In this document: positions 14,039 to 48,440 of the stretch, in pieces
Layout of the letters: each line of letters starts with the position of its first letter
Numbering within the stretch: the stretch's first letter is position 1
Assembly (NCBI GenBank): GCA_903905455.1
Contig: CAIVGN010000072.1
Span: forward strand, 1 to 64,000
Source of the DNA: an uncultured Archangium sp.
Lineage (GTDB): Bacteria > Myxococcota > Myxococcia > Myxococcales > Myxococcaceae
Length of the DNA: 64,000 nt
Direction of reading: 5' to 3'
Translations under genes and position numbers: made by a program
The notes under the pieces: model-generated
The model's input: the letters and a program-made list of their open reading frames with translations, nothing else
Told to the model about the DNA's origin: nothing
Databases searched by the model: none

Positions 14039-14105
14039 GCGTGGCGTGACAGTCGCCCCGGCGCTCAGCACAATCCTCCGCGTTCACCGATGGGGGGATT
14101 CACAC

Positions 14106-17100
14106 ATGACGAAGATCCAGCAGCGCAGCACGCAGCCTGCCACCACCAAGCACGCGCCCAGGGGCCCGGAGCGCCTCGACGCGAGCGCGGCGACGGCCCT
14201 GGCACAGTTGTCCAAGGCGAACCCGGGCCAGGGCTCCATCTCCGGCAAGGAGATGGCGGAGGCCATCCTCAACGCCACCAAGGACCCGGACAACCAGGCC
14301 GCGGGCAAGGAGTTCACCACCATCAAGAACTGGGTGAAGACCCACGGCGACAAGCTCTCGCCCGAAGCGAAGAAGGTCTTCGAGGTGTACTCGCGCGAGG
14401 CGAACAAGGCGCTCGCCGCGGGCCAGACCGGCATCGACTTCCGCGTCTTCAACTCGATGCAGCGCGAGATGATGAGCGTCGCCAGGCCCCGCTACCAGGA
14501 CGTCAGCGCCGGCAAGGCCCTCACCGCGCTCGCGGCGGCCAACGGCAAGCCCGGCTCCATCTCCGGCAAGGAGATGATGGACGCGATCATCAAGGGCACG
14601 AAGGACCTCGACGGGCACTCCGGCACCACCGAGTTCGCCGACGTCTCCAGGTTCGTGAAGGAGAACGCGCAGCTCCTCTCGCCCGAGGCGAAGAAGGTGT
14701 TCGACGTCTACGCGAAGCAGGCGAAGGCGGCAGGCAGCAAGGGCCTCACCGCTGACGCCTTCAGCCGCATGGCCCGCGACATGCTCCGCGCCGCGCAGCC
14801 CCACTACCAGGACCTCTCGGCCGGCGCCCAGCTCACCGCGCTCGCGGCGAACAACGCGGGGCCCGGCTCCATCTCCGGCAAGGAGATGATGGAGGCCATC
14901 GTCAAGGGCACCGCCGACCTCGACGGCCAGTCCACCAAGGCCGAGTTCAACGACATCGCGAAGTTCGTCAAAGAGAACGAGCACCTGCTCTCGCCCGAGG
15001 CGAAGGCCGCGTTCGGGGTCTACGAGAAGGCGGTGAAGGGCGCGAAGAACGGCGCCCTTGGCCTCAAGGACTTCATGAAGATGCAGGGGGACCTGGCGAA
15101 GGTCGCCGCCCCGAAGCGGGCCGACAGCTCGATGGGCGCCTCGCTCGACGCGCTGGCCGCGGGCAACAAGGAGCCGGGCTCCATCTCGGGCCGGGAGCTC
15201 TCGCTGGCGATCATGCGCGGCGCCGCCGACGCCGACAACCAGGCCGCGGGCGCCGAGTTCCGCGACGTGGCGAAGTTCGTGAAGGAGAACGCGCAGCTGC
15301 TCTCGCCCGAGGCGAAGGCCGCCTTCGCGGTCTACCAGCAGCACGCCACCGCGGCGCAGGCACGCGGCCAGACCGGCCTGAGCACCCGCGAGTTCATGGC
15401 CATGGGGCTGGAGATGCAGCGCGTGGGCGCGCCCCGCTACGGCGACCAGAGCGCGGCGCAGGCGTTGAACACGCTGGCCGCGGGCAACAAGACGCCGGGC
15501 AGCATCTCGGGCCGCGAGATGGAGGTGGCCATCACCCACGGCATCAAGGACCTCGACGGCCAGGCCGCCGGCACGGAGTTCGCCGACATCGCCAAGTTCG
15601 TGAAGGAGAACGCACGGCTGCTCTCGCCCCAGGCGAAGGCCACCTTCGCGGTCTACGAGAAGTACGCGAAGGCCGCGCAGGCGAAGGGGCAGACGGGCAT
15701 CAACCAGGGCGACATGTGGCGCATGCAGCTCGAGATGCGCGGCGTGAACCCGCCCTTCCAGCCGTTCCAGAACCCGCTCTCGCAGCTCGGCTCGCTCTTC
15801 CAGGGACCGGTGAGCCAGCCGCAACTCGGCGCGGGCATCCAGAACGCGCTCGACGGGTTGCAGAACACCTTCGGTCAGTTGGGCGCGTTGATGCCCGGGC
15901 TCCCGAACTTCGGCGGCGCGCAGAACCAGCTCGCGCAGCTGGGCAACACGCTCGCCGAACAGGCCATGGTCGGCCTGGGCCAGTCGCTGGTGGACGGGTT
16001 GAACAACGTCTTCATCTCGCTCACCGGCGCGCCCGCGGGGGAGAAGGACCCGCTGCACCTCGGGGAGGCGCTGGCGGACTTCAACCGGCAGATGCACGAC
16101 CTCTTCGGCGGTGGCGGCGCGGGCACCGGCGCGAGCGTCATTCCCCCGTGGAAGAACCAGGCGCCGGTGATGAACGGCCAGCCGCCCAGGAGCGGCAACA
16201 CCGGCATCGTGCCCCCGTGGCTCGTACGCCCCCGGCCCTTCCTCCCGCGGCCTGATGCGGGCGCGACGGCGGCGGTCAACCAGCTGCTCGAGAACAACCC
16301 GAAGCCCGGCTCCATCTCCGGCAAGGAGATGACCGAGGCCATCATCAAGGGCACCGCCGACCTCGACAACCAGGCCGCAGGCACGGAGTTCGCGGCGTTC
16401 AAGAAGCTGGTCGACGCGCACCCCGCCCTGCTCTCGCCCGAAGCGAAGAAGGCCTTCGCGGTCTACGAGCAGCACGCGCGCGCGGCGCAGGCGCGGGGCC
16501 AGTCGGGCCTCGGCCTGGGCGAGTACACGCGCATGCAACTGGAGATGCGCGCGGTCTCCGGGCCGGCCTGGGCCGACGTGGGTGCGGGCAAGCAACTCGA
16601 GGCGCTCGCCGCGGGGAACAAGGCGCCCGGCTCCATCTCCGGCAAGGAGATGATGGATGCCATCATCCAGGGCACCGTGGACCACGACAACCAGGCCGCG
16701 GGCCGCGAGTACCGGGACATCGCCAAGTTCGTGAAGGAGAACGAGCCGCTGCTCTCCCCCGAGGCGAAGAAGGCCTTCGCGGTCTACGAGCAGCACGCGA
16801 AGGCGGCGCAGGCGCGCGGGCAGACCGGCATCGACGTGCGCGACTTCATGCGCATGGAACTGCAGATGGCCAACGTCTCCCGGCCGGCCTACCTCGACAC
16901 CTCGGCAGCGCAGGTCCTGACCCAGCTGGGCAAGGACAACCCGAAGCCCGGCTCCATCAGCGGCACCGAGATGACCGAGGCGATCCTCCAGGCCACGCGC
17001 GACCCCGACAACCAGGCCGCGGGCCGCGAGTACCAGGACATCGCGAAGTTCGTGAAGGAGAACGAGCCACTGCTCTCGCCCGAAGCGAAGCGCGCGTTCG

Positions 17101-17855
17101 CCACCTACGAGCGCCACGCGCAGGCCGCGCAGGCGAAGGGCCAGACGGGCATCAGCCTGTTCGACTCCATCCGCATGCAGGGCGAGATGCGCCAGGTCAG
17201 CTCGCCGCAGTACCAGGACCGGTCGGCCGGCCAGGCGCTCAACGCGCTCGCGGCGGGCAACAAGGCCCCGGGCTCCATCAGCGGGCAGGAGATGGCGCAG
17301 ACCATCCTCCGCGCCACGCAGGACCCCGACAACCAGGCCGCGGGCCGGGAATTCAAGGACGTCGCCAAGTTCGTGAAGGAGAACGAGCAACTGCTCTCGC
17401 CCGAGGCGAAGCGTGCCTTCGCGGTCTACGAGAAGGCCGCCCAGGCCGCGCAAGCGAAGGGACAGACGGGCATCGGCGGCAACGAGTGGAGCCGGATGAC
17501 CACCGACCTGGACCGGGTCTCGCAGCCCGGCTACCAGGACAGCAGCGCGGCGGCGGCCTTGAAGACGCTCACGGCGAACAACAAGACGCCGGGGTCAATC
17601 AGCGCCACCGAGCTGCGCAACGCCATCTTGAACGGCACGCGCGACGTCGATGGCCAGGCCGCGGGGAGGGAGTTCTCCGACTTCGCGAAGTTCGTGAAGG
17701 AGAACGAGCCACTCCTCTCGCCGGCCGCGAAGAAGGTGTTCGCGGTGTACGAGCAGGCCGCGAAGGCCGCGCAGGCGAAGGGGCAGACCGGCATCAGCGC
17801 ACAGGACTACGCGCGCATGTCCCGGGAGATGGTGGTGCTCTCGCTGTTCAAGTGA
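14106..17855 (+). CDS. Ten-repeat protein with degenerate EF-hand-like loops
   Basis: A 1249-residue protein with no signal peptide and no recognised enzyme domain. Ten repeats of ~104-107 residues are arranged five, then a ~175-residue Pro/Gln/Leu/Gly-rich insert (nt ~15745-16270), then five. Each repeat has NxxPGSISGKEM, then TxDxDNQAAGxEF, then FVKENxxLLSPEAKKAFAVYE and AAQAKGQTGI. The first loop keeps Gly-6, Ile-8 and Glu-12 of an EF-hand but lacks the acidic positions 1/3/5; the second keeps Asp-3, Asp-5 and Glu-12. Each unit thus looks like a degenerate EF-hand pair (inference). Start 14106 was chosen because MTKIQQ begins the protein-like sequence. Function, location and partners are unknown. 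A copy of the last ~80 bp occurs at 19907-19990. Confidence 0.8.
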   Translation: MTKIQQRSTQPATTKHAPRGPERLDASAATALAQLSKANPGQGSISGKEMAEAILNATKDPDNQAAGKEFTTIKNWVKTHGDKLSPEAKKVFEVYSREANKALAAGQTGIDFRVFNSMQREMMSVARPRYQDVSAGKALTALAAANGKPGSISGKEMMDAIIKGTKDLDGHSGTTEFADVSRFVKENAQLLSPEAKKVFDVYAKQAKAAGSKGLTADAFSRMARDMLRAAQPHYQDLSAGAQLTALAANNAGPGSISGKEMMEAIVKGTADLDGQSTKAEFNDIAKFVKENEHLLSPEAKAAFGVYEKAVKGAKNGALGLKDFMKMQGDLAKVAAPKRADSSMGASLDALAAGNKEPGSISGRELSLAIMRGAADADNQAAGAEFRDVAKFVKENAQLLSPEAKAAFAVYQQHATAAQARGQTGLSTREFMAMGLEMQRVGAPRYGDQSAAQALNTLAAGNKTPGSISGREMEVAITHGIKDLDGQAAGTEFADIAKFVKENARLLSPQAKATFAVYEKYAKAAQAKGQTGINQGDMWRMQLEMRGVNPPFQPFQNPLSQLGSLFQGPVSQPQLGAGIQNALDGLQNTFGQLGALMPGLPNFGGAQNQLAQLGNTLAEQAMVGLGQSLVDGLNNVFISLTGAPAGEKDPLHLGEALADFNRQMHDLFGGGGAGTGASVIPPWKNQAPVMNGQPPRSGNTGIVPPWLVRPRPFLPRPDAGATAAVNQLLENNPKPGSISGKEMTEAIIKGTADLDNQAAGTEFAAFKKLVDAHPALLSPEAKKAFAVYEQHARAAQARGQSGLGLGEYTRMQLEMRAVSGPAWADVGAGKQLEALAAGNKAPGSISGKEMMDAIIQGTVDHDNQAAGREYRDIAKFVKENEPLLSPEAKKAFAVYEQHAKAAQARGQTGIDVRDFMRMELQMANVSRPAYLDTSAAQVLTQLGKDNPKPGSISGTEMTEAILQATRDPDNQAAGREYQDIAKFVKENEPLLSPEAKRAFATYERHAQAAQAKGQTGISLFDSIRMQGEMRQVSSPQYQDRSAGQALNALAAGNKAPGSISGQEMAQTILRATQDPDNQAAGREFKDVAKFVKENEQLLSPEAKRAFAVYEKAAQAAQAKGQTGIGGNEWSRMTTDLDRVSQPGYQDSSAAAALKTLTANNKTPGSISATELRNAILNGTRDVDGQAAGREFSDFAKFVKENEPLLSPAAKKVFAVYEQAAKAAQAKGQTGISAQDYARMSREMVVLSLFK
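14205..17850 (+). repeat. Ten ~320-bp coding tandem repeats, interrupted once
   Basis: The GGCTCCATCTCC-like landmark of each unit falls at about 14232, 14553, 14865, 15177, 15500, then 16309, 16630, 16950, 17271 and 17593, a period of 312-323 bp. The array is broken by ~530 bp of non-repeat coding sequence between units five and six. Confidence 0.85.
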
Positions 17856-17871: not shown

Positions 17872-17900
17872 GCGTGGGTGGCTCCGAGGGTCACCCACGC
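17872..17900 (+). terminator. Terminator-like hairpin after the ten-repeat gene
   Basis: GCGTGGGTG (17872-17880) and CACCCACGC (17892-17900) form a perfect 9-bp stem with an 11-nt loop, 17 nt after the stop codon. Imperfect pairing extends outward. There is no T-tract. Confidence 0.55.
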
Positions 17901-18023
17901 TGCTCGCACCGGGCGTCCCGGCGCACGCGTGTTGGAGCGGGCAGGCGCCTTCATCGTTGTTTCGGTCTGCCCCTGGACCATTCTCGACGTGCGCTGATCG
18001 GCGGGCTCTGCCAGCCTCCAGCG

Positions 18024-19517
18024 GTGCGCGTACTGCTGAGGTTGGGACTGATGTTGGGACTGTTGTCGGGCTGTACCGCTGGCGTCATCGGCGGCCACGA
18101 CTCGGGACACCCAGACCCCACCGCTGACTCGGGAACGCCCTCTACGGACGCAGGCGTCCTCGTCACGGATGCGGGACAGCCCACCATCGATGCGGGCACG
18201 AGTGACGCCGGGGCGCGCGTCGACGCGGGGATCCCGACCGAGGTGATGCCGCCCCCCCTCCCCTGCACGAAGACCGTCGGCACGGGCTCAGGCCAGGTCG
18301 ACATTCAGCAGGCTGCGCTGAGCCTCGTGGACGACGACGTGGTCTGCGTTCGCGGCGGAACGTACGAATCGATCAACATCGCGAACATCACCGCCAGCGT
18401 CGGGCATCGGATCACGATTCAGAACGACGGCGTGGTGACCTTCGGCGGAACGTCAGGCGGCAACGCACTGACCCGCGTGACCATCACCGGCACGGGCACC
18501 GGAGCGACGCCCACGGCCAACGGCTTTCAGTTCAAGAACATCGCGTACCGCGCGCTGCAGATCGACGGCACGGTGCACTCGCTCACCCTGCAGTACCTCG
18601 ATTTCGAGAACGTCGCGGACTACACGATCTACTTCGGTGGTGATGCTCAGGTGTTCGACGGCACCGACGCGACTGCGCTGTCGGAGCTCAAGGTCCTCCA
18701 CTGCCGCGCCAAGAACTTCGGCGGCGCGTTCCTCCAACTGACCGGAGGCGCCACTGGCAGCACTCTGACTGGCATCGCCACGGGCACCGAGGTCGCGTGG
18801 AACACGCTGACCGACACGCCGTCGAGCAACTACCCCGTGTACCTGGGCAACGCGTTCGGCGTGAACGTGCACCACAACGTCTTCAGCGGCCTCTCCCTCC
18901 AACTCGCGCAACACAACGGAATGGTGTTCCTGAACGGCGATGGGCAGGTTCACCACAACTTCTTCCGCAACTACCTGGGCGAAGGCATCCGGCTGTGGCC
19001 GTACAGCTGGGGGCAGGTCGGCCGCATCGACGTCTTTGGCAACGTCTTCCTCGAGTCGATGAAGTACTCGCCCGTCGAGGTGCAGGCCTTCACGGCCGAC
19101 GTCACGCGCAACGCGCACACCCACTTCACCAACGTGCGGATCTTCAACAACACCGCCGGCAACATCAACCTGCAGACCCTGCTGCCCAACAACTACACGA
19201 TGTGGGTCGCGGGCCTCGTCGACACCTACGACTTCGAGGGAGGCACGGTGGAGATCACCAACAACCTCGTCTTCAACGTCCAGATGCAGAAGGACAACAA
19301 CCCCATCGTGAACCTCGAAGGCGCCGGCGTTCCGACCTCGAGCCACAACCTCTACTTCGCGACGTCGGCCCAGGCCGGGCTCGTAGACGAAGTCAGCGTG
19401 AGACTCGCGACCGGTTCGGCCGCCATCGGAGCCGGCGTGGCGGTGTCGGGACTCGGCCTCGACTTCTACGGAGCCCCGTATCCATCACCGCCCGACGTCG
19501 GGGCCGTCGCGTACTGA
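18024..19517 (+). CDS. Parallel beta-helix surface lipoprotein
   Basis: About 497 residues from a GTG start (VRVLLRLGLMLGLLSGC). The lipobox LLSGC is followed by a linker rich in Asp-Ala-Gly, then a right-handed beta-helix domain with PbH1-style turns: HRITIQNDGVVTFGG, VHHNVFSGLSLQ, HNGMVFLNGDGQVHHNFF, NVRIFNNTAG, VEITNNLVFN. Proteins of this fold often bind or cleave acidic polysaccharides, but I see no lyase catalytic signature. It ends DVGAVAY, the usual end of secreted beta-helix proteins. It lies between the ten-repeat gene and a displaced copy of that gene's tail, so it may be a later insertion. Confidence 0.75.
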   Translation: MRVLLRLGLMLGLLSGCTAGVIGGHDSGHPDPTADSGTPSTDAGVLVTDAGQPTIDAGTSDAGARVDAGIPTEVMPPPLPCTKTVGTGSGQVDIQQAALSLVDDDVVCVRGGTYESINIANITASVGHRITIQNDGVVTFGGTSGGNALTRVTITGTGTGATPTANGFQFKNIAYRALQIDGTVHSLTLQYLDFENVADYTIYFGGDAQVFDGTDATALSELKVLHCRAKNFGGAFLQLTGGATGSTLTGIATGTEVAWNTLTDTPSSNYPVYLGNAFGVNVHHNVFSGLSLQLAQHNGMVFLNGDGQVHHNFFRNYLGEGIRLWPYSWGQVGRIDVFGNVFLESMKYSPVEVQAFTADVTRNAHTHFTNVRIFNNTAGNINLQTLLPNNYTMWVAGLVDTYDFEGGTVEITNNLVFNVQMQKDNNPIVNLEGAGVPTSSHNLYFATSAQAGLVDEVSVRLATGSAAIGAGVAVSGLGLDFYGAPYPSPPDVGAVAY

Positions 19518-19906: not shown

Positions 19907-19990
19907 AGGGCCGCGCAGGCGGAGGGCCAGACCGACATCTACGTGAAGGACGACGCGCGCATGTCCCGCTCGGAGGTCGTCTTCCCAGCG
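19907..19990 (+). pseudogene. Diverged copy of the 3' end of the ten-repeat gene
   Basis: The + strand encodes RAAQAEGQTDIYVKDDARMS followed by RSEVV, matching the end of the ten-repeat protein (AAQAKGQTGISAQDYARMS then REMVV); by eye about 16 of 24 residues agree. It is closest to the last repeat unit, not to an internal one. Only ~80 bp is matched. The beta-helix gene lies between the intact gene and this copy. Confidence 0.6.
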
Positions 19991-26133: not shown

Positions 26134-26814
26134 TCAGGGCAACAGGGCCGCGAGGTCCCTGGGGGACCAGGTGCCGGGGTGAAAGACGAAGACGCGAGGC
26201 GCGGTCATCAGCGCGAGGCTTGGGGGCTCATCGGTCGAGACGCCCACCGAGGTGCCACACCGCGCGAGCACTCCGGTGGCAAAACGACTGCGCCAGCGTT
26301 CAGAATCCAGCCCGAGTCGGAAGAACTGCGGCACCACTTCATCGACCGGCGCGCCCTCGAACCATGGAGGCGACTCGGCGCACCACGACGCGAGCCCCGT
26401 GATGGACAGCGTCTTCTTCGAGAGCCGCAGGCGCAGCGCAAAGAGCAGCGCGCGGTAGTCCGCGTATTCGGCAGGCCGGGCGTCGAAGTCGAGTTGCAGG
26501 CCGCTGGTGTGGAGCGTCTCCACGCGCTCGACCAGCACCTCGACCAACTTCGCGCGCGCCGCCTCGGGCAGCCCGCGGCCATGCGTCTCGAGGCGCACCA
26601 CCGCGAGGGGAACCCGCCCGGGCGGGAGCAGCGCGGGTTGCACGCGGCGGCGTACCCGCAGGCCCTCGGGCGTCACGTTCACCTCGGCCACCAACAACGC
26701 CACGTCGACGGTCTCGGGGAGCGCGCGGAGATCCTGCTTCGCTTCCCAGACCCAGAGCGTCACGTGGGGCGCGCTGGAGAGCAGGCAGCAGGTCAACAAG
26801 GCGAGGGGTGCCAC
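26134..26814 (-). CDS. DUF3142-type secreted protein
   Basis: A 226-residue protein with a signal peptide (APLALLTCCLLSSAPH). It shows the DUF3142 landmarks LWVWEAKQDL, VVRLETHGRGLP, LQLDFDARPAEYADYRALL and ITGLASWCAESPPWF. The core resembles a TIM-barrel glycosidase-like fold with acidic residues at strand ends (LDFD), so carbohydrate binding or cleavage is possible but unproven. It is the first gene of a two-gene operon with the helical protein downstream. Confidence 0.7.
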   Translation of the reverse strand: MAPLALLTCCLLSSAPHVTLWVWEAKQDLRALPETVDVALLVAEVNVTPEGLRVRRRVQPALLPPGRVPLAVVRLETHGRGLPEAARAKLVEVLVERVETLHTSGLQLDFDARPAEYADYRALLFALRLRLSKKTLSITGLASWCAESPPWFEGAPVDEVVPQFFRLGLDSERWRSRFATGVLARCGTSVGVSTDEPPSLALMTAPRVFVFHPGTWSPRDLAALLP

Positions 26815-26859: not shown

Positions 26860-26966
26860 GGCCCCTCAGCCCGGAGTCCGCAGTGGGAGAAGCAGTCGCA
26901 CGCCGGACCGAGCGCCTCGAGCAAGCCGAGATCGTTTCCCCGTGGGCGCCCCGCTGGCGCCACCCG
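26860..26966 (-). pseudogene. Diverged copy of the 3' end of the gene at 36086
   Basis: On the - strand this encodes VAPAGRPRGNDLGLLEALGP then ACDCFSHC, against VASAGRPRGNDLGLLEALGP then AVDYFAHF and a stop in the gene ending at 36086: about 23 of 28 residues agree by eye. Most codon differences in the first 20 residues are silent, so the copy diverged while still coding. DNA similarity continues ~20 nt past the old stop. The stop codon itself is lost. The three-gene EGF operon lies exactly between the two copies. Confidence 0.75.
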
Positions 26967-26980
26967 GGACTCCCAGGTGG
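26960..26980 (-). terminator. Hairpin after the EGF-lipoprotein operon
   Basis: CCACCCGGG (26960-26968), loop ACT, CCCAGGTGG (26972-26980): a 9-bp stem with one mismatch, 5 nt past the stop of the gene ending at 26985. The arms match those of the 50-bp element at 35809 (CACCCGGG... and ...CCCAGGTG), as if that element had lost its spacer; this resemblance could be chance. Confidence 0.5.
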
Positions 26981-26984
26981 ACGT

Positions 26985-29279
26985 CTACCAGCCGATGAGC
27001 ACCAGTCCGGGTCCACCGCTGCTCGCAGGAATGACCTGCGCGCGACCTCCGTAACCGCTCGGGTCCACGGAGCTCGGCATCGCGAGGACGGAGGGCACGC
27101 CCTGGGTCGCCGAGCGCTGGAGCACCTCATCGCGTACGCCCGTCGCAGCGACGAACCCCGAGCCACCACCGCCCCCGAGCGCCTCGCCGTTGGCGGCACC
27201 GCCGCCCCCGAAGAAGCCACCGCCGCCTCCGGCGCTGCAGAAGCCGTTGGCCAGCCCCACACCGCCGCCTCCACCAAACGTCGCCCCCTGGCGCGGCGTG
27301 GCCACGCTCATCACGCCGCCGCTCCCGCCCTGCAAGGGGAGGCCGGTTTGACCGCAGAGCAGGCCATTCACACAGCCGCCGACGCCGCCGGACTGAGGCG
27401 ACCCCGCCGCGCCCTGCGAATCGAGCGGACCGCCCGTCGCGAGCACGCCCGCGCCGCCGAAGGCTCCGCCGCCGTTACCCCCGGCGGCCCCAAACACGTC
27501 TCCGGTGAAGAAGGCGCCGCCGCCACCACCACCGGCAATCAGCACCGCGTTCACCGCCGAGACGCCTCCGTCGGACAGCGGCCGGAAGAGGCCCGAGAGG
27601 CCTCCACCCGCGCCGCACGCCGGAGTCGCGCCGCCGTCGGCCAGGGGTGCGCCGGCGATGGAGCTGCCACCACCGCCCACCACCACCAACAGCACCTCGC
27701 CCGCATCGACGTCGACCGTCGCGCTCGCAAACCCGCCGGCACCGCCCCGCACGTTGGCGCCGCGCCCCGCGCCCCCCCCGCCTCCCCAGGCCTGGACCGA
27801 TACCTGGGTGACGCCCATGGGCACGGTGAAGCGCTGCAGGCCGCCATCGAAGGTGAAGGTGGCCGGAGTGACGACGAGGGAGAACGTCGCCACCTGGTTG
27901 TTCGGCGCACGCAGCGCGAGCGTCTTCGTTCCAACCGACGTCGCCGCGGGCACCACCGCGCGGTACTCGGTCGCCGAGATGAAGGAGAGCCCGGTGGCGC
28001 TCAGGCCGCCCACGGTGAGGGTGCTACCCGCGACGAAGCCGGTCCCCGTCAGGGTGATGGGAGTGCCGCCTCGAAGGCCGACCTCGCCAGGAGAAACCGA
28101 GCTGATGCTCGGCCCGGGCAGACACGTCGGGCCGTACCGCCCATCGGTGCACAGACACTGGGCGCCCGTGCCCACGCGCACGCAGGTGCCCGTGTTGCAT
28201 GCGGCGCCACAGCCGAGCGCCTCGACTTCGCAGAACGAGCCGCTGAACCCGGCCGGGCAACCCACGCCTGCGTCGGGGCCCAGGCACACCACGCTCCCCG
28301 TGCCGTCTTCACACACGGCAGGGCCGCAGGAGCCCGCGACGCAGCGGCGGTCGGGCACGCACGCGCCCGATTCGCGGTGGTACCCGGGGTAACACTGGAC
28401 GCAGCCCTGGCCCGCGTAGCCAGGCAGGCACCGGCAGCTCACGACGCCACCGGTCGCGTCGCAGCTCGCCGTCATCGGGCAACTCGTCGGGCTGCAGACC
28501 TCGTCTGCCGCGCAATCACCCCGCGCGTCGCGGTGAAACCCGGTCGAGCACGTCTCGCAGAACAGCCCCGAGTACCCGCTGGTGCACGCGCACAGCGCCT
28601 TGCCCGTGCTGGCGCTGCACGTCCCGCCGCCGCTGCACGTCGACGCCGTGCATTGCTCCGTGGGCGTGCACACCCCACCGTCGATCGACGCGTAGCCGGG
28701 CACGCAACTGGCGCACCGCGCTCCCTGGTGGCCCGTGTCGCAGGTGCAGGTGACGACCCCGCGGTCTTCGGAGCACGTTCCCTGCGCCCCGCAGAGCGTC
28801 GCGCTGCACTGCACGCACAGCGGCCCGCTGCACGAGCACGCGATGCGCCCGGTCGAGTCGTCACAGGTCGACTCCGCCACGCAGCTCGCGGCGTTGCATC
28901 GTTCGGGCAGACCGCACGTCGTCCCCGCGTCGTCGGTCGTCGCGAGGAAGCCGCCATTGCACGCACGACACGTCGGCCCGTCGTAGCCGACGGCACACAG
29001 ACACCCGGCGACGCCGTCGGCCACCACGCACTGGCCGTGCGCACCGCAGCGATCGTCACAGGTCTCGTCAGCGACACAGTCATGGCCCACGACGTGCGTG
29101 CCGGCCTGGCAGACGGCGCACGTCGGGCCCTCGTAGCCGGGTTGACACTCGCACTGCGGCAACTGCGCGACCTCGCGGCACGTGCCGTGGGCGTTGCAGT
29201 AGCTCGTCGGGCACCCGTCGCTCGGGGGTGCCGAGGCGCAGCCCACGAGGACCATCGACACCAGAACGAGCCGCTTCAT
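26985..29279 (-). CDS. Lipoprotein with EGF-like repeats, IPT/TIG domain and Gly-rich C-terminal domain
   Basis: About 764 residues. Lipoprotein signal [15 protein letters not shown] (Cys ~14). Roughly eight EGF-like modules follow (HGTCREVAQLPQCECQPGY, TCDTGHQGARCASC and similar), then an IPT/TIG domain (ISSVSPGEVGLRGGTPITLT), then a long Gly-rich domain with repeated GGGG blocks and AWGGGGGAGRG, similar to the glycine-rich domain of receptor-like surface proteins. No enzyme motif. A calcium- or glycan-dependent adhesive role at the cell surface is plausible but inferred. Last gene of a three-gene operon; its ATG overlaps the preceding stop by 4 nt. Confidence 0.8.
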   Translation of the reverse strand: MKRLVLVSMVLVGCASAPPSDGCPTSYCNAHGTCREVAQLPQCECQPGYEGPTCAVCQAGTHVVGHDCVADETCDDRCGAHGQCVVADGVAGCLCAVGYDGPTCRACNGGFLATTDDAGTTCGLPERCNAASCVAESTCDDSTGRIACSCSGPLCVQCSATLCGAQGTCSEDRGVVTCTCDTGHQGARCASCVPGYASIDGGVCTPTEQCTASTCSGGGTCSASTGKALCACTSGYSGLFCETCSTGFHRDARGDCAADEVCSPTSCPMTASCDATGGVVSCRCLPGYAGQGCVQCYPGYHRESGACVPDRRCVAGSCGPAVCEDGTGSVVCLGPDAGVGCPAGFSGSFCEVEALGCGAACNTGTCVRVGTGAQCLCTDGRYGPTCLPGPSISSVSPGEVGLRGGTPITLTGTGFVAGSTLTVGGLSATGLSFISATEYRAVVPAATSVGTKTLALRAPNNQVATFSLVVTPATFTFDGGLQRFTVPMGVTQVSVQAWGGGGGAGRGANVRGGAGGFASATVDVDAGEVLLVVVGGGGSSIAGAPLADGGATPACGAGGGLSGLFRPLSDGGVSAVNAVLIAGGGGGGAFFTGDVFGAAGGNGGGAFGGAGVLATGGPLDSQGAAGSPQSGGVGGCVNGLLCGQTGLPLQGGSGGVMSVATPRQGATFGGGGGVGLANGFCSAGGGGGFFGGGGAANGEALGGGGGSGFVAATGVRDEVLQRSATQGVPSVLAMPSSVDPSGYGGRAQVIPASSGGPGLVLIGW

Positions 29280-30499
29280 GGACACACCTGCCCGTAAGTC
29301 CCGCCTGCGCAGAGGCAGACGTTGCTGTTGATGAGGTCGACGCACTGGCCGGGGCCACACGCCGAGTTGAGACAGTCATTCGTGTTGGTCTGGCAGTTGG
29401 CGCCGCTGAAGCCGGGGTCGCAGGCACAGGTGGCGACGCCCCCGTCGGCCGCGCATTGCCCGCGGAAACGACAGGTCTCGGGTCGGCAGTTCACGTCCAG
29501 CGCGCAGGTGGCGCCCCCGTCGGCGAGCCCTTCGCGGTGGTAGCCCGGGTAGCAGCTCTCACAGCCCAGGCCGGCGAAGCCGGGGTCGCAGCGGCACCCG
29601 ACCGCGCCGTTCTGCTCGACACAGGTGCCAGGGCCCACGCACGGGTTCGCCGTGGAGCAGCCCTGGTTCGCCACGCACCGGAAGTTCGCGTCGCGTCGGA
29701 AGCCCGTCGCGCAGGCGCCACAGCTGGGCCCCGCGTACCCCGGGTCGCAAGCGCACGCCGCGCGACCCGAGACCACGCCGCAGGTGCCGGCGAACGAGCA
29801 ACTGGAGGGCAGGCAGACCTGCGCCTGGCTGCAGGCGCCCCCGTCTCCGCCGACGAACCCGGGGTAACACTCGTCGCACCGCGCGCCCGCGTAGCCGGGG
29901 TCGCACGCGCATCGTACGAGGCCCCCCTGGTCGAGGCACGCCCCGTACATCGAGCACGGGTTGGCCTGTGCACACGACTGCGTCAACGCCTCACAAAACG
30001 CGCCCGCGGTCCCGTCGGGACACTGACAGCTGACGCGCCCACCATCCGCGGTGCAGGTGCCCCCGTTGGCGCACGTGGCCGCGGTGCACGCCGTGTCGAG
30101 TCCACACCCCGCATCTTGTTCGTGGTGGTACCCGGCGCGGCAGTCACCGCAGTCCACCCCGGCGGTGTCGGGGGAACACGCGCAGACCCTCCGACCCTCG
30201 ACGACGGAGCAGACGCCGTGGTCGCCACACGCGCCCGCGGCACACGTCGCGTCTGGCAAGCAGGTGCCGTCGGCCCCGCGGTGAAACTCCGCGCTGCATT
30301 GACCGCAGACCACGCCGTCGTAGCCGGGCTCGCAGGCGCAGGTCGGGAAGGTGGCCTGCCACGAACACGTGCCGTGAGACGAGCACACGGTCGCCGGGCA
30401 CTCGACTCCATCGGTTGGATACGACGAGCAGGAAAGGACGAGCGACAGGCCAGCGAGCACCAGGGCCCGCGTCTTGGAGCTGATTGGCTTCATGATCAT
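29276..30499 (-). CDS. EGF-like repeat lipoprotein
   Basis: A 407-residue lipoprotein ([14 protein letters not shown], Cys ~24) made almost wholly of about eight EGF-like modules with the laminin-style pattern CxCxPGYxGxxCxxC, e.g. [15 protein letters not shown] and [15 protein letters not shown]. It shares the module style of the downstream gene and is probably its paralogue. Translational coupling on both sides (ATGA overlaps at 30496-30499 and 29276-29279) suggests the three products act together at fixed ratio. Confidence 0.8.
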
Positions 30500-33400
30500 T
30501 GCGCCCAGAGCACGAAGACGAGGCCCGGCACGTTGCGACCAAATTCGGAGCCCCGGCTGGTGTCGCCGGACAGCTCATTGGCGCCCCAGGAGAAGGTGAC
30601 GGGGAGGTTGTTGCGGTCGCGGCTGGGGTGTCGGTACGGGTTGCAGGGCGTCGGGTTGACGGTGGTGTTGGGCGAGCTCATGGCGTTGCAGAAGCCCATG
30701 CTCGGTTGAATCGGCATGATGTCGTGGGTGGGGTAGCCGATGGTGCTGTTGTTCGAGCCGTAGATGGCGATCCACATGCCGAGGTGGGGGGTGGCCGGGG
30801 GCGCCAGTCCAGTCACCAGGCCGGGGAGCACCCGATACGCACCTTGAACACCGAACTGGGTGCCGAGACTGGCGAGTGAAAACTGCTGGGCGACGTTGCG
30901 GCCGAAGTGCCGACACGAGCCCTCGATGGTCCTCACTCCGTTCTCGAGGTCATCATACGGAGCCAGACCCGCGAGCGCGGGATGTGACGCCAGCGGGCCC
31001 AGGATGTACGTGGAGTCGGCGCCGCACATGTTCCAGTTGAAGTTCAGGTTGGCGGGCACGGGCACCCATTGGCCTCTGCTGTTCCAGTTCGGAATACCGG
31101 ACGACGTGAACAACATGACGTCGAAGACCAGCACCCCGTTTCGATACGCGGTCCAGCGGTAGTTGCCCGGGTACTGGCCGCCCGCCCCTGCAAAGCCGAA
31201 CGTGGGAAACGCCGTGGTGGCCGACGCATAGGAGATCGTCTCGTGGTTCGAAGCCGTCGCGGTGTTGACCGAGAGCGTCGCGGGGTTGGTGGCCACGGCA
31301 GGCCCGTTGAGCCACAGCCCGGGGCCCACGCAGCGGCACCCATAATTCCCGACAGGAGCGGTGCACGTCGTGCCGTTGGGGGCGACACACGTGTCGCCCG
31401 CGACGGTGCAGGCATTACCGGTGTCGCACGACGTCACCGAGGTGATGGCTGAGCCGTTGCGAGTGCTGCGGTCGAGGGCCACGGGTAGGATCACCGACCC
31501 CTGCGAGTTGACGAAGTAGATGGGCGTCCACCCTCCACTCGGCGTCGGCAGGCTGCAGTAGGTGAGGATGGGCTTGTTGTCGCCGCGGTCAGGCAGCCCG
31601 CTGGTGACCCGGGGCGTCGGGCCGTCGGGGTCGATGATGTGCATGCCCTCGGTCGGCACGTTGATGCAGGTCCTGGGGTAGGCAGGAATGCAGAGGCTCG
31701 CGGAGCCGCAGTAGCCGCTCGCGCAATCCCACGGCAGCGCACACGCGTTGTTGACCGCGCAGCCGCCGCACGTCGCCCCGCCACAGTCGATGTCGGTCTC
31801 GGAGCCATTGCGCACGCCGTCCTGGCACGGGGTCGCCACGCACAGGCCCGTCGTGCCGTTGCAGATGCCGCTGGCGCAATCGGCGTTGCCGCTGCACCCC
31901 AGCCCCAGGCCGCAGGTAGCGCAGGCGCCGCCACCACAGTCCACGCCGGTCTCGGTGCCGTCGCGCGCGCCCGTGTTGCAGGAGGTCGCCACGCAGGCCC
32001 GGGTCGCCAGGCTGCAGAACCCGGGCACGCCCACCATCGCCTGCGGGTTGGCGCAGTCGGTGTTGGCCAGGCAGCCCCGCGTGAGCGCGCACTTCGTCGA
32101 GCACGTGCCGCCGCAGTCGACGTCGGTCTCGTTGCCGTCGAAGCGGGCGTTGGAGCACTGGTCGGCCGCGCAGCGATTGCCCGCGCCACACACGCCGCTC
32201 TGGCAGTCGGAGTTGACGACACACGACAGGTTGGCCGCGCACTTCGGCTCACAGCTGCCGCCGCAGTCGAGATCGGTCTCGCTGCCGTCGCGTGCGCCAT
32301 TGAAGCAGGCGCCGGGGACGCAGCGCAGCGACGTGGGGTTGCAGACGCCGCTCGCGCAGTCGGCGTGGGCGGCGCAGCGCTTGTTCACGGCGCAGGCGTG
32401 GGCCGGGTTCGAAGTGGCGCAGGAGCCACCACAGTCGAGGTCGCTCTCGCTGCCCGCGGTGAGCACCCCGTCGCCGCAGGTCGTCGCCACGCACAGCCGC
32501 GCGGTGAGGTTGCAGAGCCCCGAAGCGCAATCGCCGTTGAGGGTGCAGGCCACCCCCGTCGCGCACCGGGCCGCGCAGGTCGCGCCGCCGCAGTCGACAC
32601 CCGTCTCGGCGCCGTTGCGGGTGAGATCGCGGCAGGCGTCGCTCGAGCACACCGAGCCGACGCAGAGGTTCGACGCACAATCACCCGCCACCGCGCAGGA
32701 ACGGCTGTTGGCGCAGGGCCTGCCGCACGAGCCACCACAGTCGACGTCGGCCTCGGTCGCGTCCTTGACTTCGTTTTCACACGGCCCGCCCACGCAGCGG
32801 CCGTTGGTGCAGCTGTCGGTGACGCAGTCGGCGTTCCCCGTGCAGGCCTTGGAGACGGCGCACTTCAGACAGGTCGGCCCGCCGCAGTCGATGCTCGACT
32901 CGGAGCCGTTCTTGATGCCGTCGCTGCAGCCGGGCGCCGTGCAGGTCGCCGTGAGGAGGTTGCAGACGTTGCCGGCCTGGCAGTCGGCGGTGACCAGGCA
33001 CCGCGCGGTGAGCGCACAGCGCTGGGCGCAGGTGGCGCCGCCGCAATCGGCGTCGGTCTCGTCGGTGTTGGTGCGCCCGTCCTGGCAACGGTCGGCCACG
33101 CAGCGGGAGGTGGAGGCAGAACAGATGCCGGTGGCGCAGTCACTCTCCACGGCGGGACGACACGCGTCGCCCGTCGCGCACCTTCGAGCGCACGAGCCGC
33201 CGCAGTCGATGTCGGCCTCGGTGCCGTTTCGAATGCCGTCGACGCAGGTGTCGCTCACGCACGCGCCCGCGACGCTGCAGGCCCCGCTCACGCAGTCGCC
33301 TGCGGACAGGCAGCGCTGACCGACCGCGCAGCGGCTGGTGCAGCCCGACGCGCTCCCACAGTCGAGGTCTGATTCGGCGCCGCTCTGCACGCCGTCGAGG

Positions 33401-35349
33401 CACAGGTTCTCGGTGCAGCGTCGCTCGCCGCCCACGGGCTTGCCGCAGAAGCCCGGATTGCAGTCGCTGTTGGCGGTGCACGACAGGCCGAGGCCGCAGC
33501 GAATGGGGTTCGTCGGCCCACCACAGTCGACGTCGGTCTCGCCCTGGTTGAGCACCGTGTCGTCGGACAGGCCGCCACGACAGGTCGCGCCGGTGCAGAT
33601 CAGGCTTCGACAGTCTTGCGCGGTGCTGCAGGCGGTGCCGCGCGGACAGGTGGCCCCACAGGTTCCGCCGCAGTCCACGCCGGCTTCAGTCGCGTCTTTG
33701 CGATCGTTGGTGCAGGTGGACGGGCAGAAGCCGGCGCGCTGAAAGGTCGCGGTCGGCCCTTGCCACAGGGGCTCCCATTCCCTCTTGTAGAAGGCGATCC
33801 CCGTGCCGCGATACAGGGGCGGCAGGTTTTCCTCGGCGACTCGCACCGGCGCGCCATCCTTGTAGTGCTGTTCGGCGAGCGTGAAGGGGCCCACGCCGAA
33901 GGAGACGACCTTGAGGAGCGTCACCTCGGCGCCGACCTGGAGCGCCGAATACGCCTTGATCGAAGGGGTGATGGTCGCGGTCTTGCGCACGGCCGCGGGC
34001 GGGTTGGCCGGGCAGGCGACGTTCTCGAAGTCGAGGCTGCCCACCACCGCGTTGCGTACCCCGGCGTAGGGGCCGGCGAGGTCGGCGAGGGTGAGCGTGG
34101 TCTTGAGCGTGAGCGCGCACTCTGCTTCGAGCGAGCCGCTGGCGCTGATGACCTGGGCGCTGCCGGTGACGACGAACGGGGCAGGTGTCACGGGCACCCA
34201 CTGCTCCTTCTTCGGACCGGAATCGCGGTACTGCACGCCGACCGAGAGGCTCGGGTTGGTGAGGTCCACGCTGACTTTGCCGCGGTAGCGCCCGCGGAGG
34301 CTGAACTGGCAGTCGCCGTACACGCCCGTCTTCAGCAGCACCGGCACGCCGTAGATGGTGCCGACCTGCTTCACCTTCTCGCGGCCGATGAGCACCTCGG
34401 GAAGCGTGAAGGGCTGGGGCGTCTGCAGCGTGGCGACCGCGTCCTCGAGGGCGCTCAAGTCCGCGGTGGTGAGCGTGCGCGCGTCGTCGGGGTGGGGCTC
34501 CACGGAGACCTCGGAGTCGATGACGATGCCTGCCTTGACGCTGCCGCCGACGCTGAAGAGAAACGACTCGAGCGAGCAGAAGGGGCAGTTCTTGGTCTCG
34601 AGCTCGAGACGGAGTCGGGGCGTGAGGGACAGGCTGGGGTTCAGCGTCAGGCGCCCGCGGTACTGCATGCGCGCCGTGGCGGGAGAACCGTTCGCCTTGA
34701 TGAAGGCGATCAGCTGGTCGTGCGCCACGACGGTGACGATGGGCACCGTGGGGACGTCGATGCGGTCGGTGGAGAGGTCGAGCGGCTGGCGCTTGACGCC
34801 GATGGGGACCAGCGTGGTGCCCGCGGTGGGAACTTCGAGCGGCTGCTGGGTGACGCCCAGCGCGTCGAGGTCGTTGGGGAAAGGCGTGGCGCGGCCGGTG
34901 GGGAAGGCCGGCAGGTAGCGCTCGAGGTCGACGCCCTCGGGGACCACGGGGGCGGTCATCTCCGACGAGTCCATCGTCAGGCGCAGCTCGCCGTCGAAGA
35001 TCTGATCGATGGTGGTGGGCTCCGTGTCGACGACGACCTGATCTCCATCGACGCGCACCTCCTTCACCCTGCGAATGAACCCCAGCGGGTTGGTGGTGCC
35101 GGCCATCGACGAGGGAGCGCCGACCACCGACTTGCCGACCGGCCAGTTCGCTTTCACTTCCTCGGCGGCCGAGGCGGGGAACAGCAGCCGGTCCTTCTCG
35201 ACCGTGACGACCTGCGCGAGCTCTTTCGAGGCCTCGAAGGCGGCCTCGGTCAGCTTCAGCGTGTTGACGTTGGGAGACGCGTCGGGCCACTGACGGGAGG
35301 GCGAACAGGCGGCGACGCAAGTGAAAAACAGTCCGAGATACGGGCGCAT
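30496..35349 (-). CDS. Giant Cys-rich repeat lipoprotein (13 DCGG repeats)
   Basis: About 1617 residues from ATG 35349 ([15 protein letters not shown]; lipobox VAAC). An N-terminal ~530-residue beta-rich domain is followed by 13 repeats of ~45 residues built on NGxETDxDCGGxxC, then a variable Cys pair, CxxxxDCxSGxC, and a C-terminal ~300-residue domain with [16 protein letters not shown]. Such DCGG repeats are widespread in myxobacterial surface proteins and function is unknown. The four or more Cys per repeat imply dense disulfides or metal sites. First gene of the operon with the two EGF lipoproteins. An upstream in-frame ATG at 35415 would spoil the signal peptide and is rejected. Confidence 0.8.
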
Positions 35350-35483
35350 GAAGCTCTCAGCGTATGCCGCAAGTTTTGCACACGTACGTGTTTTCCAGTG
35401 TGCGCGGATTCGCACAGGGGCTTCCGCATCGACTGCTCACGCGGCCGGCTGCAGCGGAGCCAGCAGCTTCGGCGAAGCCCTCA

Positions 35484-35739
35484 CTTCGATGATGCGTTGG
35501 CCGGGACGGGCGCGGACGACTACCGCCTCGAGCAGCAAGACGCGCGGCGCTTCAGGCTCGCGGTGCTCGATGAACGCGCCGCGCCCGCGTGTCTCGCGGC
35601 GCTGCAGCGGCTCTCCGGGACGGGCGCGGACGTCGCGGTGACGGCGGTGCAGGCGCTTCCCCCCGAGCGCTCGGGCAACAACCGCGTCGCCGACCGCGCG
35701 TTCCCGGTCGACCTGGGGTCACTCACCGCACGTGGCTGA
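35484..35739 (+). pseudogene. Isolated 3' gene tail ending FPVDLGSLTARG
   Basis: On the + strand the frame reads HFDDALAGTGADDYRLEQQ, RRFRLAVLDERAAPACLAAL, then NNRVADRAFPVDLGS and a TGA at 35737-35739. It looks like a real C-terminal region, but no start or upstream body is present: the frame runs antisense into the giant lipoprotein. Parent not recognised. It converges on the inverted-repeat element at 35809. Confidence 0.4.
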
Positions 35740-35808
35740 GCTGGCTTCCCGCCCGGGCGGGGCATGCGTGGGGAGCGCGCTGCAGGTGCACCGACTCGGC
35801 CGCCGGTG

Positions 35809-35858
35809 CACCCGGGTTGGATTGAGCACGTCAGGGCGACCCTCAAACAACCCAGGTG
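35809..35858. repeat. 50-bp inverted-repeat element, copy 3
   Basis: CACCCGGGTTG (35809-35819) and CAACCCAGGTG (35848-35858), one mismatch, spacer exactly 28 nt. The spacer pairs internally through TTGAG/CTCAA and GTC/GAC, different bases from copy 1 but the same nested arrangement. It lies between convergent gene tails whose stops are at 35739 (+) and 35865 (-). Confidence 0.75.
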
Positions 35859-35864
35859 GCACCT

Positions 35865-35999
35865 TCACGAAGTACGGGTCACGCGCGTGCCGAGATGTTC
35901 GAGGTCGCGGAGCCAGCGAGCGTCGAGCACGGCAGCCGCCCACTCGAACGCCGCCTCCCTCAGGGCCGCTGCTTCACCGGCCCGGCAGATCGCTGCGCC
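35865..35999 (-). pseudogene. Isolated 3' gene tail ending LGTRVTRTS
   Basis: On the - strand the frame reads AAICRAGEAAALREAAFEW, AAAVLDARWLRDLEHLGTRV and TRTS with TGA at 35865-35867. It is a plausible amphipathic C-terminus. An in-frame stop lies just upstream, so the body of the gene is gone. Its stop is 6 nt from the inverted-repeat element. Confidence 0.4.
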
Positions 36000-36008
36000 T
36001 CGCCTCAA

Positions 36009-36074
36009 CTACCAGCCGAAGGAGCCACCCTGTTGCGTGACCACCTCGAACACGCCATCGCGCTTCGAGGCGCC
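36009..36074 (-). pseudogene. Isolated 3' gene tail ending TQQGGSFGW
   Basis: On the - strand the frame reads GASKRDGVFEVVTQQGGS then FGW and a TAG at 36009-36011, directly downstream of the gene ending at 36086. It is short and lacks a start, so it is a weak call, but its character and position match the other tails in this zone. Confidence 0.3.
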
Positions 36075-36085
36075 TCACCCCGAAT

Positions 36086-37045
36086 TCAGAAGTGGGCGAA
36101 GTAGTCGACCGCCGGGCCCAGCGCCTCGAGCAGCCCGAGATCATTCCCCCGCGGCCGTCCCGCTGACGCCACGCGGGGCTGGCCGTCGTCCCCCACGCCG
36201 CCGGGCCGCAACAGGGCGAGCGCGCGTTGCTTCGGGTCCTTGGAGATGATCAACACCAGCTCCCCCCGCTCGGCCGCGGCCAGCGCGTTCTTCTGGTCGA
36301 CCTTCACCCAGCCGCGGCCCACGCACTCGAAGCGCACCCAGTCGATGGTCTGGGCCAGGGACAGCTCGCGGCCTCCGCGGTTGTGGGCGATCTCGCAGTC
36401 CATCGCCAACGAGACGTCCCACGCGAAGACGTGCGCGCGGGGTTCGGCGGCGGGGCTGTTCACGGCGTAGCGCGGGTTGTGACCGCAGGCGAACTGGTCG
36501 ATGACGGTCCACAGCAGGCGGGCGGCGCGGCGACGGGGGCGGCTCTGCACCGGTGGCTGCACGGCGCGCCAGGTCTCCTGGTCGGTGACCTCGGGGGCAG
36601 GCTGCTCGCCGTCGTAGAACTCGATGGTATTGGTGGTGGGCTCGTCGAGGTCCAGCTCCACGCTCTTGGTGCGGCCGAGCACGACGTCGAGCTGGGTGCG
36701 CTCTTCCTGGTCGAAGCCCGACGAGGCCATGCGCTTCTGGATGACGTTCGACTTGCGGCGCGGCGGCTGCACCAGCGGGCTGGGGCCGACGGGCCGGAGG
36801 TTGTTCGACGACGGTCCCGCCACGCGCGGGAGGTTGCTCATGCTCGTGGAGGTCTTCTCCTCGCTGCCGAAGGGGTTGGCCCGGGGCACGTTGGTGACGG
36901 TGCGGGTGCGGGTGCCTCCCACGGGCGCGAGGTCGAAGAGCGAGTCGGAGGTCCCGCGGGGCGTGGCGCGGGCCACCTGCACGGGCCTCGGGCCCAGCGG
37001 GGGCGCCTTCGGTGGCTGCTTCGGCTTTCCGTCACCCCCTGCCAT
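36086..37045 (-). CDS. Protein with a CHAP-like amidase domain that appears catalytically dead
   Basis: A 319-residue protein with no signal peptide. Residues 1-~170 are Pro/Arg-rich and disordered. The C-terminal domain (GHNPRYAVNSPAAEPRAHVF, AWDVSLAMDCEIAHNRGG, LALLRPGGVGDDGQPRVASA) resembles a family of CHAP-like peptidoglycan amidases in which the first block normally reads YCNxFVWDV and the later one GHxAxxRPG. Here the Cys position is Ala and the His position is Ala, so hydrolysis is unlikely. That family match is from memory of the pattern, not a search. It might bind a wall substrate or a partner. Its 3' end recurs at 26860-26966. Confidence 0.55.
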   Translation of the reverse strand: MAGGDGKPKQPPKAPPLGPRPVQVARATPRGTSDSLFDLAPVGGTRTRTVTNVPRANPFGSEEKTSTSMSNLPRVAGPSSNNLRPVGPSPLVQPPRRKSNVIQKRMASSGFDQEERTQLDVVLGRTKSVELDLDEPTTNTIEFYDGEQPAPEVTDQETWRAVQPPVQSRPRRRAARLLWTVIDQFACGHNPRYAVNSPAAEPRAHVFAWDVSLAMDCEIAHNRGGRELSLAQTIDWVRFECVGRGWVKVDQKNALAAAERGELVLIISKDPKQRALALLRPGGVGDDGQPRVASAGRPRGNDLGLLEALGPAVDYFAHF

Positions 37046-45963: not shown

Positions 45964-46024
45964 CTGCGGCTGAGCAAGCGACATGCCGCGTGGGCTGATC
46001 ACCTGGAGCGTGCCCACCTCGACT

Positions 46025-46135
46025 TCACGTGTCCCGTGCGAAGTCTCCGCGCAGGTCCTCGACGGCCACGGGCTCGAAGAATTGGAGCGAGGTGGCACGC
46101 CACGCCGTGAGCATCTGAGCGAAGGGGACGCCGCC
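46025..46135 (-). pseudogene. Diverged copy of the 3' end of the transglutaminase-like gene
   Basis: On the - strand this encodes PFAQMLTAWRATSLQFFEPV then AVEDLRGDFARDT and a stop, against PFEQMLAAWRATYPHFFEGV then GVEELRGDFARET in the gene at 47765: about 24 of 33 residues agree by eye, and the stop codon is kept. Similarity continues ~10 nt past the stop. Nothing upstream of this point matches. The GyrB-like gene lies exactly between the two copies. The remaining ~150 nt to 46288 shows no recognisable gene. Confidence 0.75.
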
Positions 46136-46288: not shown

Positions 46289-47740
46289 TCAGCGCGTGCG
46301 CCGCTTTGCCTGAGCCTCGCGCTCGGCGACGCGGTCCCACCACCACGGTGATGCAGTGAGCGCACGCACCACGACGTCGCGCACCGCGAGGCGCGCGGTC
46401 TCGACTTCGAGCGCGGCCTTGGTCGGGCCGCGGAAGCGCGGGTGCAGCAACCACACGTGCACCACGGCGGTGAGGCCGGCGATGGCGCGCCTCGCGAGCG
46501 CCTCCGTCGGTGCCGTCCTTCCGATCGCCTCGAGCAGTCCTTCGGCGTGCGACCCATTCAACTCGGTGGCGGCGCAGTTCACGAACGAGACGAGCCGCCG
46601 CTCCGCCTGCGTCGCGTCCCAGCAGAGCGCGAGCTCGACCTCGACCTCGTTGGCCTCGCCCTGCACCGACAGCACGGTCTCGGGCACGGCGTTCGGCGCG
46701 AGCTGGCGCACCCACGCGGCGAGACCTTCGGGCTGCTGCAGCAGGTGGCCCTGCCAGGTCAGCTTCAGGTCCGGAAGCAAGTAGCCGAGCGGCTCGAACA
46801 GCTTCGTCAGCGCCGGGAGGTCGTGCCGGGCCTCTCCGAAGACGACCGGGTCGGGGAGGTAGCGGATGCGCGTCCCCCGGCGGGTCGTCACGCCGAGCGC
46901 GGTGAGCGGGTCGGTCAACTGGCCCTGCTCGAAGACCGCGCGGTGCAGCACCCCGTCGCGCACCGTCTCGACCTCGAAGCGTTGGCTGAGCGCCTGCACC
47001 ACGGCGACGCCCACACCGGCGAGCCCGGGTCTCACGTGGAGATGTGGGTGGTGACCATCGAGCGTGGGCGTGAAGTGGAGTGACGAGAAGATGGCCGTGA
47101 ACGCGGGGTACCCCTTGAACGTGGCTTCGAGCGGCAGGCCATCACCATCGTCTTCCACCGTCACCCAGCCCTCGGCGTCGATGCCCACGTCGATGCGCGT
47201 CGCGCGGGCCGCGAGGTTGAGATCGAGCGCGTTGGCGAAGACCTCGAAGACCAACGTGCCAAGCCCCCGCGCACCGGTGTCGCCGATGTACATGCCCGGG
47301 CGAACGCGCACCGGCGCGATCCCCTCGAGCACCACCAGCGGCGCGGCATCCTCGTCGTAGTCGAGCGCGCCGAGCGCACGCAGGGCCGAGCGCATCTCTG
47401 GCGAGTTCGGCAGCGGGCAGGCCAGCACGGCGTCGAGGAACGCGCGGGGCGGGCCATAGCCATGCTTCGCGATGAAGTGCCGGAGCTGAGGAGACGCCAC
47501 GAAGACGCCGTCACCCGACGGCACGAGCAGCGCCCGGTCACCCAGCCAGCTCGTACACAACGGGCAGACCTGCTCGCGATCAGCACTGTTGATCTCGAAC
47601 AGGACGGCGATCCGCTCGCGCAGGGCCTGCGACACTTCGCCGCGTCGGTATGGGTGCTCCGCATCGAGCCAGCCGATGGCCCGTGTGTGGCGGAGGTGCC
47701 CGAAGGCCGGCACCGCTGCGAGGTCTTCAATCCACGCCAT
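46289..47740 (-). CDS. GyrB-like GHKL ATPase/transducer protein lacking TOPRIM
   Basis: A 483-residue protein. After a ~135-residue unique N-terminal region with CPLCTSWLGDRALLVPS, it has the GyrB/ParE ATPase core: VRPGMYIGDTGARGLGTLV, then EVFANALDLN with the catalytic Glu and Mg-binding Asn in place, VTVEDDGDGLP with the N2-box Asp, and GVGVAVVQALSQRFEV. A transducer-like domain follows with QTK-loop-like sequence not obvious. There is no TOPRIM or C-terminal domain, so it cannot work as a full gyrase subunit. The N-terminal Cys pair is unusual. It lies between a gene and that gene's displaced tail. Confidence 0.78.
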   Translation of the reverse strand: MAWIEDLAAVPAFGHLRHTRAIGWLDAEHPYRRGEVSQALRERIAVLFEINSADREQVCPLCTSWLGDRALLVPSGDGVFVASPQLRHFIAKHGYGPPRAFLDAVLACPLPNSPEMRSALRALGALDYDEDAAPLVVLEGIAPVRVRPGMYIGDTGARGLGTLVFEVFANALDLNLAARATRIDVGIDAEGWVTVEDDGDGLPLEATFKGYPAFTAIFSSLHFTPTLDGHHPHLHVRPGLAGVGVAVVQALSQRFEVETVRDGVLHRAVFEQGQLTDPLTALGVTTRRGTRIRYLPDPVVFGEARHDLPALTKLFEPLGYLLPDLKLTWQGHLLQQPEGLAAWVRQLAPNAVPETVLSVQGEANEVEVELALCWDATQAERRLVSFVNCAATELNGSHAEGLLEAIGRTAPTEALARRAIAGLTAVVHVWLLHPRFRGPTKAALEVETARLAVRDVVVRALTASPWWWDRVAEREAQAKRRTR

Positions 47741-47764
47741 GGCGACCCTCGCGACGACTCGAGT

Positions 47765-48421: not shown

Positions 48422-48440
48422 GGGGACGGGGCTCGAGGAC

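Follow-up and report, generated by a model that had tools for sequence, protein, structure and literature searches.

How did a three-gene lipoprotein operon come to lie between an intact gene and a second copy of that gene's own 3′ end? The question arises within the 64,000-nt window, that is, the whole stretch of DNA analysed, where the following features are involved.

36086-37045, minus strand: intact gene of 319 aa, the source of the repeat through its 3′ end
36069-36180, minus strand: gene-side copy of the repeat, with the last ~31 codons, the stop and 17 nt (alignment, self-comparison)
35416-36068, no strand: upstream flank of the operon, ~650 nt with no convincing gene
30496-35415, minus strand: first operon gene, Cys-rich repeat lipoprotein, at most 1639 aa
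29276-30499, minus strand: second operon gene, EGF-repeat lipoprotein of 407 aa
26985-29360, minus strand: third operon gene, with EGF repeats, a TIG domain and a Gly-rich C-terminus, ~765-791 aa
26860-26971, minus strand: displaced tail copy, noncoding, stop lost (alignment, codon changes)
26134-26814: DUF3142-like gene

The two copies of the repeat lie where the initial annotation had placed them, and a pairwise DNA alignment joins them over 112 nt without gaps at 80.4% identity (E 1.6e-24 between the two flanks and 2.6e-22 in a self-comparison of the contig comprising the window and its extension). The repeated stretch comprises the last ~31 codons of the 319-aa gene, its stop and 17 nt beyond the stop. 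The displaced copy sets in 14 nt past the stop codon of the third operon gene and reads GGA at the position of the gene's TGA, in agreement with the loss of the stop noted previously. A DNA search of the same genome and 39 relatives, for which the tail copy was extended by short flanking sequence, found just these two copies in the genome itself and one marginal 39-nt match in one other genome. The 319-aa protein has no Pfam or NCBIfam match and no matches in the named genomes; orthologs of its gene are present in G003 (73%), G002, G115, and G118.

Between the repeats lie 9.1 kb that consist, as described in the initial annotation, of three coupled genes, which lie on the minus strand with overlaps of a few bases, and ~650 nt without a convincing gene, which probably correspond to what had been called fossil zone 2. 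The lipoprotein starts of the first and third operon genes are probably near 35349 and 29282, respectively. No recombinase family (integrase, transposase) was matched by the operon genes or by the open reading frames of the 650-nt flank, no toxin or immunity family was matched by the operon genes, and the flank gave no phage-family or RNA-family match. Transfer RNA genes, RNA families and phage families were also considered as a cause of the insertion, and none was relevant. Separately, 72 nt of the noncoding flank (35795-35866) are 92% identical to C108:17714-17785 of the same genome and, judged by this match, may represent a short interspersed repeat.

The surroundings of the 319-aa gene differ from those of its homologs, and the difference involves a second gene and a second repeat of the same kind.

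14046-17855, plus strand: TerB-like gene of 1269 aa, whose homolog in G115, G118 and G010 lies next to the 319-aa gene in convergent orientation
17765-17824, plus strand: gene-side copy of a repeat near the 3′ end of the TerB-like gene
19909-19968, plus strand: displaced copy (60 nt, 85%), the second displaced tail in the former gap between the genes

In G115, G118, and G010 (two other genera), homologs of the 319-aa gene and of the TerB-like gene stand tail to tail; the gap measures ~200 nt in G010 and roughly 65-90 nt in the other two. In the window the two genes are still convergent and lie 18 kb apart. The two homologs are found on different contigs in G003 and G002. Since the pair is close and convergent elsewhere and 18 kb apart here, the stretch from 17.9 to 36.1 kb is most readily understood as several insertions that accumulated between two genes once adjacent, and the operon would be one of them. 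The order from the outside inwards is an intact gene, an insert, a displaced tail, further genes, a displaced tail, an insert, and an intact gene; the insert behind the TerB-like gene is a gene of 547 aa (17874-19517). Two tails that face each other in this way would be the expected leftover of repeated insertion behind each gene.

The operon itself has a patchy distribution. Relatives of it occur in G118 (the best, 63-78% identity), on contig C55 of the same genome (43-53%), and in G006, G018, and G030, whereas it is absent from five other members of the genus that were searched; by their named records, its relatives belong to Myxococcaceae and related metagenome-assembled genomes. The order of the three genes is kept in G118, G030, and C55, and G006 carries, besides one operon, another copy of the first gene that is truncated at the contig end. 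A barrel-like gene (L064 1910-3319 and L063 3979-5226) is located between the second and third genes in G006 and G018, and this gene is absent from the operons of the window, C55, and G118. Within the readable flanks, several of which are cut by contig ends, neither a gene resembling the 319-aa gene nor its tail stands beside the operon on both sides in C55, upstream in G118 and G006, or downstream in G018 and G030. An operon accompanied by neither was the arrangement that the initial annotation had named as speaking against its proposal of the operon and tail as one acquired unit. Because the other operon copies are flanked by neither, the tail appears to be no part of what travels, and thus the operon, as far as these comparisons go, is a unit that does not include the tail. 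The proposal is therefore partly supported: the insertion of a patchily distributed set of genes in fixed order stands, and a travelling unit bounded by the tail does not.

The more interesting and new result is that the same scar recurs at other genes. The initial annotation had overlooked two further repeats of this kind within the window, one at the TerB-like gene and one at a transglutaminase-like gene (47765-48478), as well as a third at the window edge.

47758-47868, minus strand: gene-side copy at the 3′ end of the transglutaminase-like gene
46018-46128, minus strand: displaced copy (111 nt, 81%)

A GyrB-like gene (46289-47740) is enclosed between these copies; its product of 483 aa combines DUF7919 with a GyrB-like ATPase part and is far shorter than gyrase B. 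When G003 was inspected for adjacency of this host gene and its downstream gene, the transglutaminase-like gene was seen to stand in a different neighbourhood. At the window edge, a kinase gene of contig C72 (62495-64342; repeat at 64313/65801) has a tail copy at 65801-65864 (97%), located ~1.4 kb downstream behind a Uma2-like gene, and together with the tail an internal piece of the gene is repeated there (87%). Two more cases were obtained from the survey described below, one on C55 (coordinates +4999; 87113/88131, 77%) and one on C64 of G003 (169702/168847, 96%). The flanking genes of the GGDEF case in G003 are not together in G000, and the neighbourhoods differ. Including the 319-aa gene, the genus sample holds six intact genes with a tail copy that is always downstream and on the same strand, and the cargo is unrelated from case to case. 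The inserts enclosed by the five other scars measure 0.8-2.1 kb and contained no recombinase where families were searched, and in two cases the copy ends 23-31 nt short of the stop codon. Recurrence of one type of scar at different genes nearby suggests a general route of DNA uptake rather than a dedicated mobile element.

The survey covered 1.17 Mb of the genus, of which 744 kb came from the same genome and 430 kb from G003; it combined self-comparison with probes from the head, middle, and tail of genes. Among 775 head probes, there was no noncoding head copy on the same strand; the sole noncoding head match is inverted, a 170-nt repeat (84%) of a 5′ end at C72 95944-96109, just upstream of the gene at 96370-97401. 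Six against zero corresponds to a one-sided p of 0.016 when tail copies are required to lie downstream and head copies upstream, and this excess of tails is a lead rather than a rate because genes were called by simple compositional criteria, in a partial sample and with the genome split into 251 contigs. In 800 kb of two complete genomes from other genera, no short displaced tails were found.

We consider these observations best accounted for, with a probability of roughly one half, by an insertion behind the 319-aa gene that involved no recombinase and duplicated the end of the target gene. The operon would have entered as acquired DNA directly behind the gene, in the gap to its old convergent neighbour, and the final ~95 nt of the coding sequence would have been duplicated in the joining event. 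Duplication at the joining accounts for both an intact gene and a functionless copy at the far junction; the gene would have remained whole with its native tail, and the copy would have decayed since. The likely process is illegitimate recombination without an integrase or transposase, in which either one end was anchored by homology within the gene and the second was joined without homology, in a manner like homology-facilitated illegitimate recombination, or the template was switched back into the broken gene end. A mechanism has to explain acquired DNA with unrelated cargo and no recombinase, a gene that stays intact, and a short stretch of its end repeated at the far junction; most of this is fitted by illegitimate joining with a homology anchor or by template switching. 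Because an empty site, with the 319-aa gene directly before the sequence that follows the tail copy, was not found in relatives, the process is one that we infer, as is the choice of which tail is native. Against this reading stand the missing empty site, the separation in G000 of the two genes that flank the G003 scar, the internal piece repeated at the kinase gene, the two copies that end short of the stop codon, and the modest significance of six against zero. The bias toward 3′ ends probably reflects selection, as no harm arises from DNA inserted behind a gene with its tail preserved, in contrast to DNA that cuts a gene off from its promoter.

The tail copy may instead be the last remnant of a second 319-aa gene in tandem, the body of which was deleted, so that the operon lies between former copies. 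This explanation seems to us somewhat unlikely, although one of the scars fits it better than it fits insertion with duplication of the gene end: the kinase copy keeps an internal piece together with the tail, as would a decayed full-length second copy. Distant genes resembling the 319-aa gene also occur in two to four copies in several genomes, and the joining of the copy 14 nt behind the last operon stop could be a deletion join. Random deletion, however, should leave heads as often as tails, and no same-strand head was seen in the survey. Moreover, no close (>60%) second gene of this type was found in the family members searched, and no further pieces of the body of the 319-aa gene lie beside its tail copy.

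A third explanation, which we regard as improbable, is that DNA of a related species, with an ortholog of the 319-aa gene beside the operon, was added by homologous recombination through a single crossover, in which case one tail would be foreign and both would once have been coding. Homology that stops near the stop codon is what orthologs with unrelated flanks would give, and the 31 codons shared by gene and copy differ by 10 silent and 8 replacement changes. The initial annotation had read the differences as largely silent and had concluded that both ends diverged while coding; this conclusion did not hold when the changes were polarised with three orthologs (G003, G115, and G118). On the branch of the gene there are 4 silent changes and no replacements, on that of the copy 5 silent and 6 replacements, and 3 changes could not be assigned to either branch. 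Under random change, 72% replacements are expected for this stretch, and the copy branch is therefore compatible with an absence of selection, which on these codon changes would mean neutral decay of the tail; its first 20 codons lean toward silent change. In any case, the ratio is unable to carry the conclusion that both ends were coding, because all similar scars pooled have 42% silent differences, similar to two pairs of true orthologs (37% and 45%) and to the ~44% that we estimate for one constrained and one free copy. The single crossover is also opposed by the neutral appearance of the copy, by the occurrence of the operon beside a gene of this type in no genome, and by two young scars that are 96-97% identical.

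Genomic islands and prophages are known to integrate into the 3′ ends of protein genes, as e14 of E. coli does at icd, restoring the gene at one end and leaving a displaced homologous tail at the other. A degenerate site-specific island of this sort, which brought a replacement tail and lost its integrase, fits the geometry at the 319-aa gene (direct repeats, an intact gene at one end, a displaced tail at the other, and homology that stops just past the stop) but is likewise improbable, as the interval holds neither an integrase nor a remnant of one, the other operon copies lack such an end in their available flanks, and the five other scars enclose very small, unrelated inserts with no common element.

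The preferred reading, insertion with duplication of the gene end, would be closer to homology-facilitated illegitimate recombination, which is described for Acinetobacter, S. pneumoniae, and P. stutzeri, and also for E. coli conjugation, in the portions of the literature consulted (PMC3240628; discussed in PMC2884548). According to these portions, foreign DNA is joined without a recombinase, anchored by homology on one side and non-homologous on the other, and a segment that appears foreign and has no recombinase is what is found here. A duplicated gene end is not described there as the usual outcome (PMC3240628; PMC2884548), and the shared stretch here is at most ~120 nt. Another partial parallel, as far as it is outlined in the relevant part of PMC5361080 (citing Jackson, 2009), is provided by Rhs genes and the effector-immunity modules of type VI secretion systems, in which the old 3′ end of a gene is pushed downstream by an inserted module and orphan ends stand in rows. 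In those systems, the gene receives an end unlike its previous one and the inserted module encodes an effector-immunity pair (PMC5361080), whereas the intact and displaced tails described here are homologous and the inserts are of various kinds; their combination of a constant 5′ region, a new and different 3′ end, and an immunity gene is not found at this locus.

A recognisable scar of this kind would make homology-anchored joining, template switching, and decay of a paralog distinguishable by test, and displaced tails would allow insertions to be listed and dated from one genome, with no reference needed. The genomes of myxobacteria are very large, and their gene content changes quickly. That this genus of Myxococcaceae has recurrent, directional, recombinase-free insertion of unrelated genes, always leaving a copy of 50-120 nt of the host 3′ end at the far junction, is doubtful; if true, the cassettes would be excisable by homologous recombination and would form a datable record of acquisition.

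Several other repeats were encountered outside the six cases. One at C72 108459 was judged by eye to reflect the heme motifs repeated in a cytochrome gene of the opposite strand, and many intergenic repeats of ~44 nt in G003 were set aside as unrelated. Also kept apart from the count were a repeat at the end of contig C3 (15996/18158) and one on C5 (365/1236). On C46, there is a pair of response-regulator tail fragments, the upstream member of which is itself a fragment.
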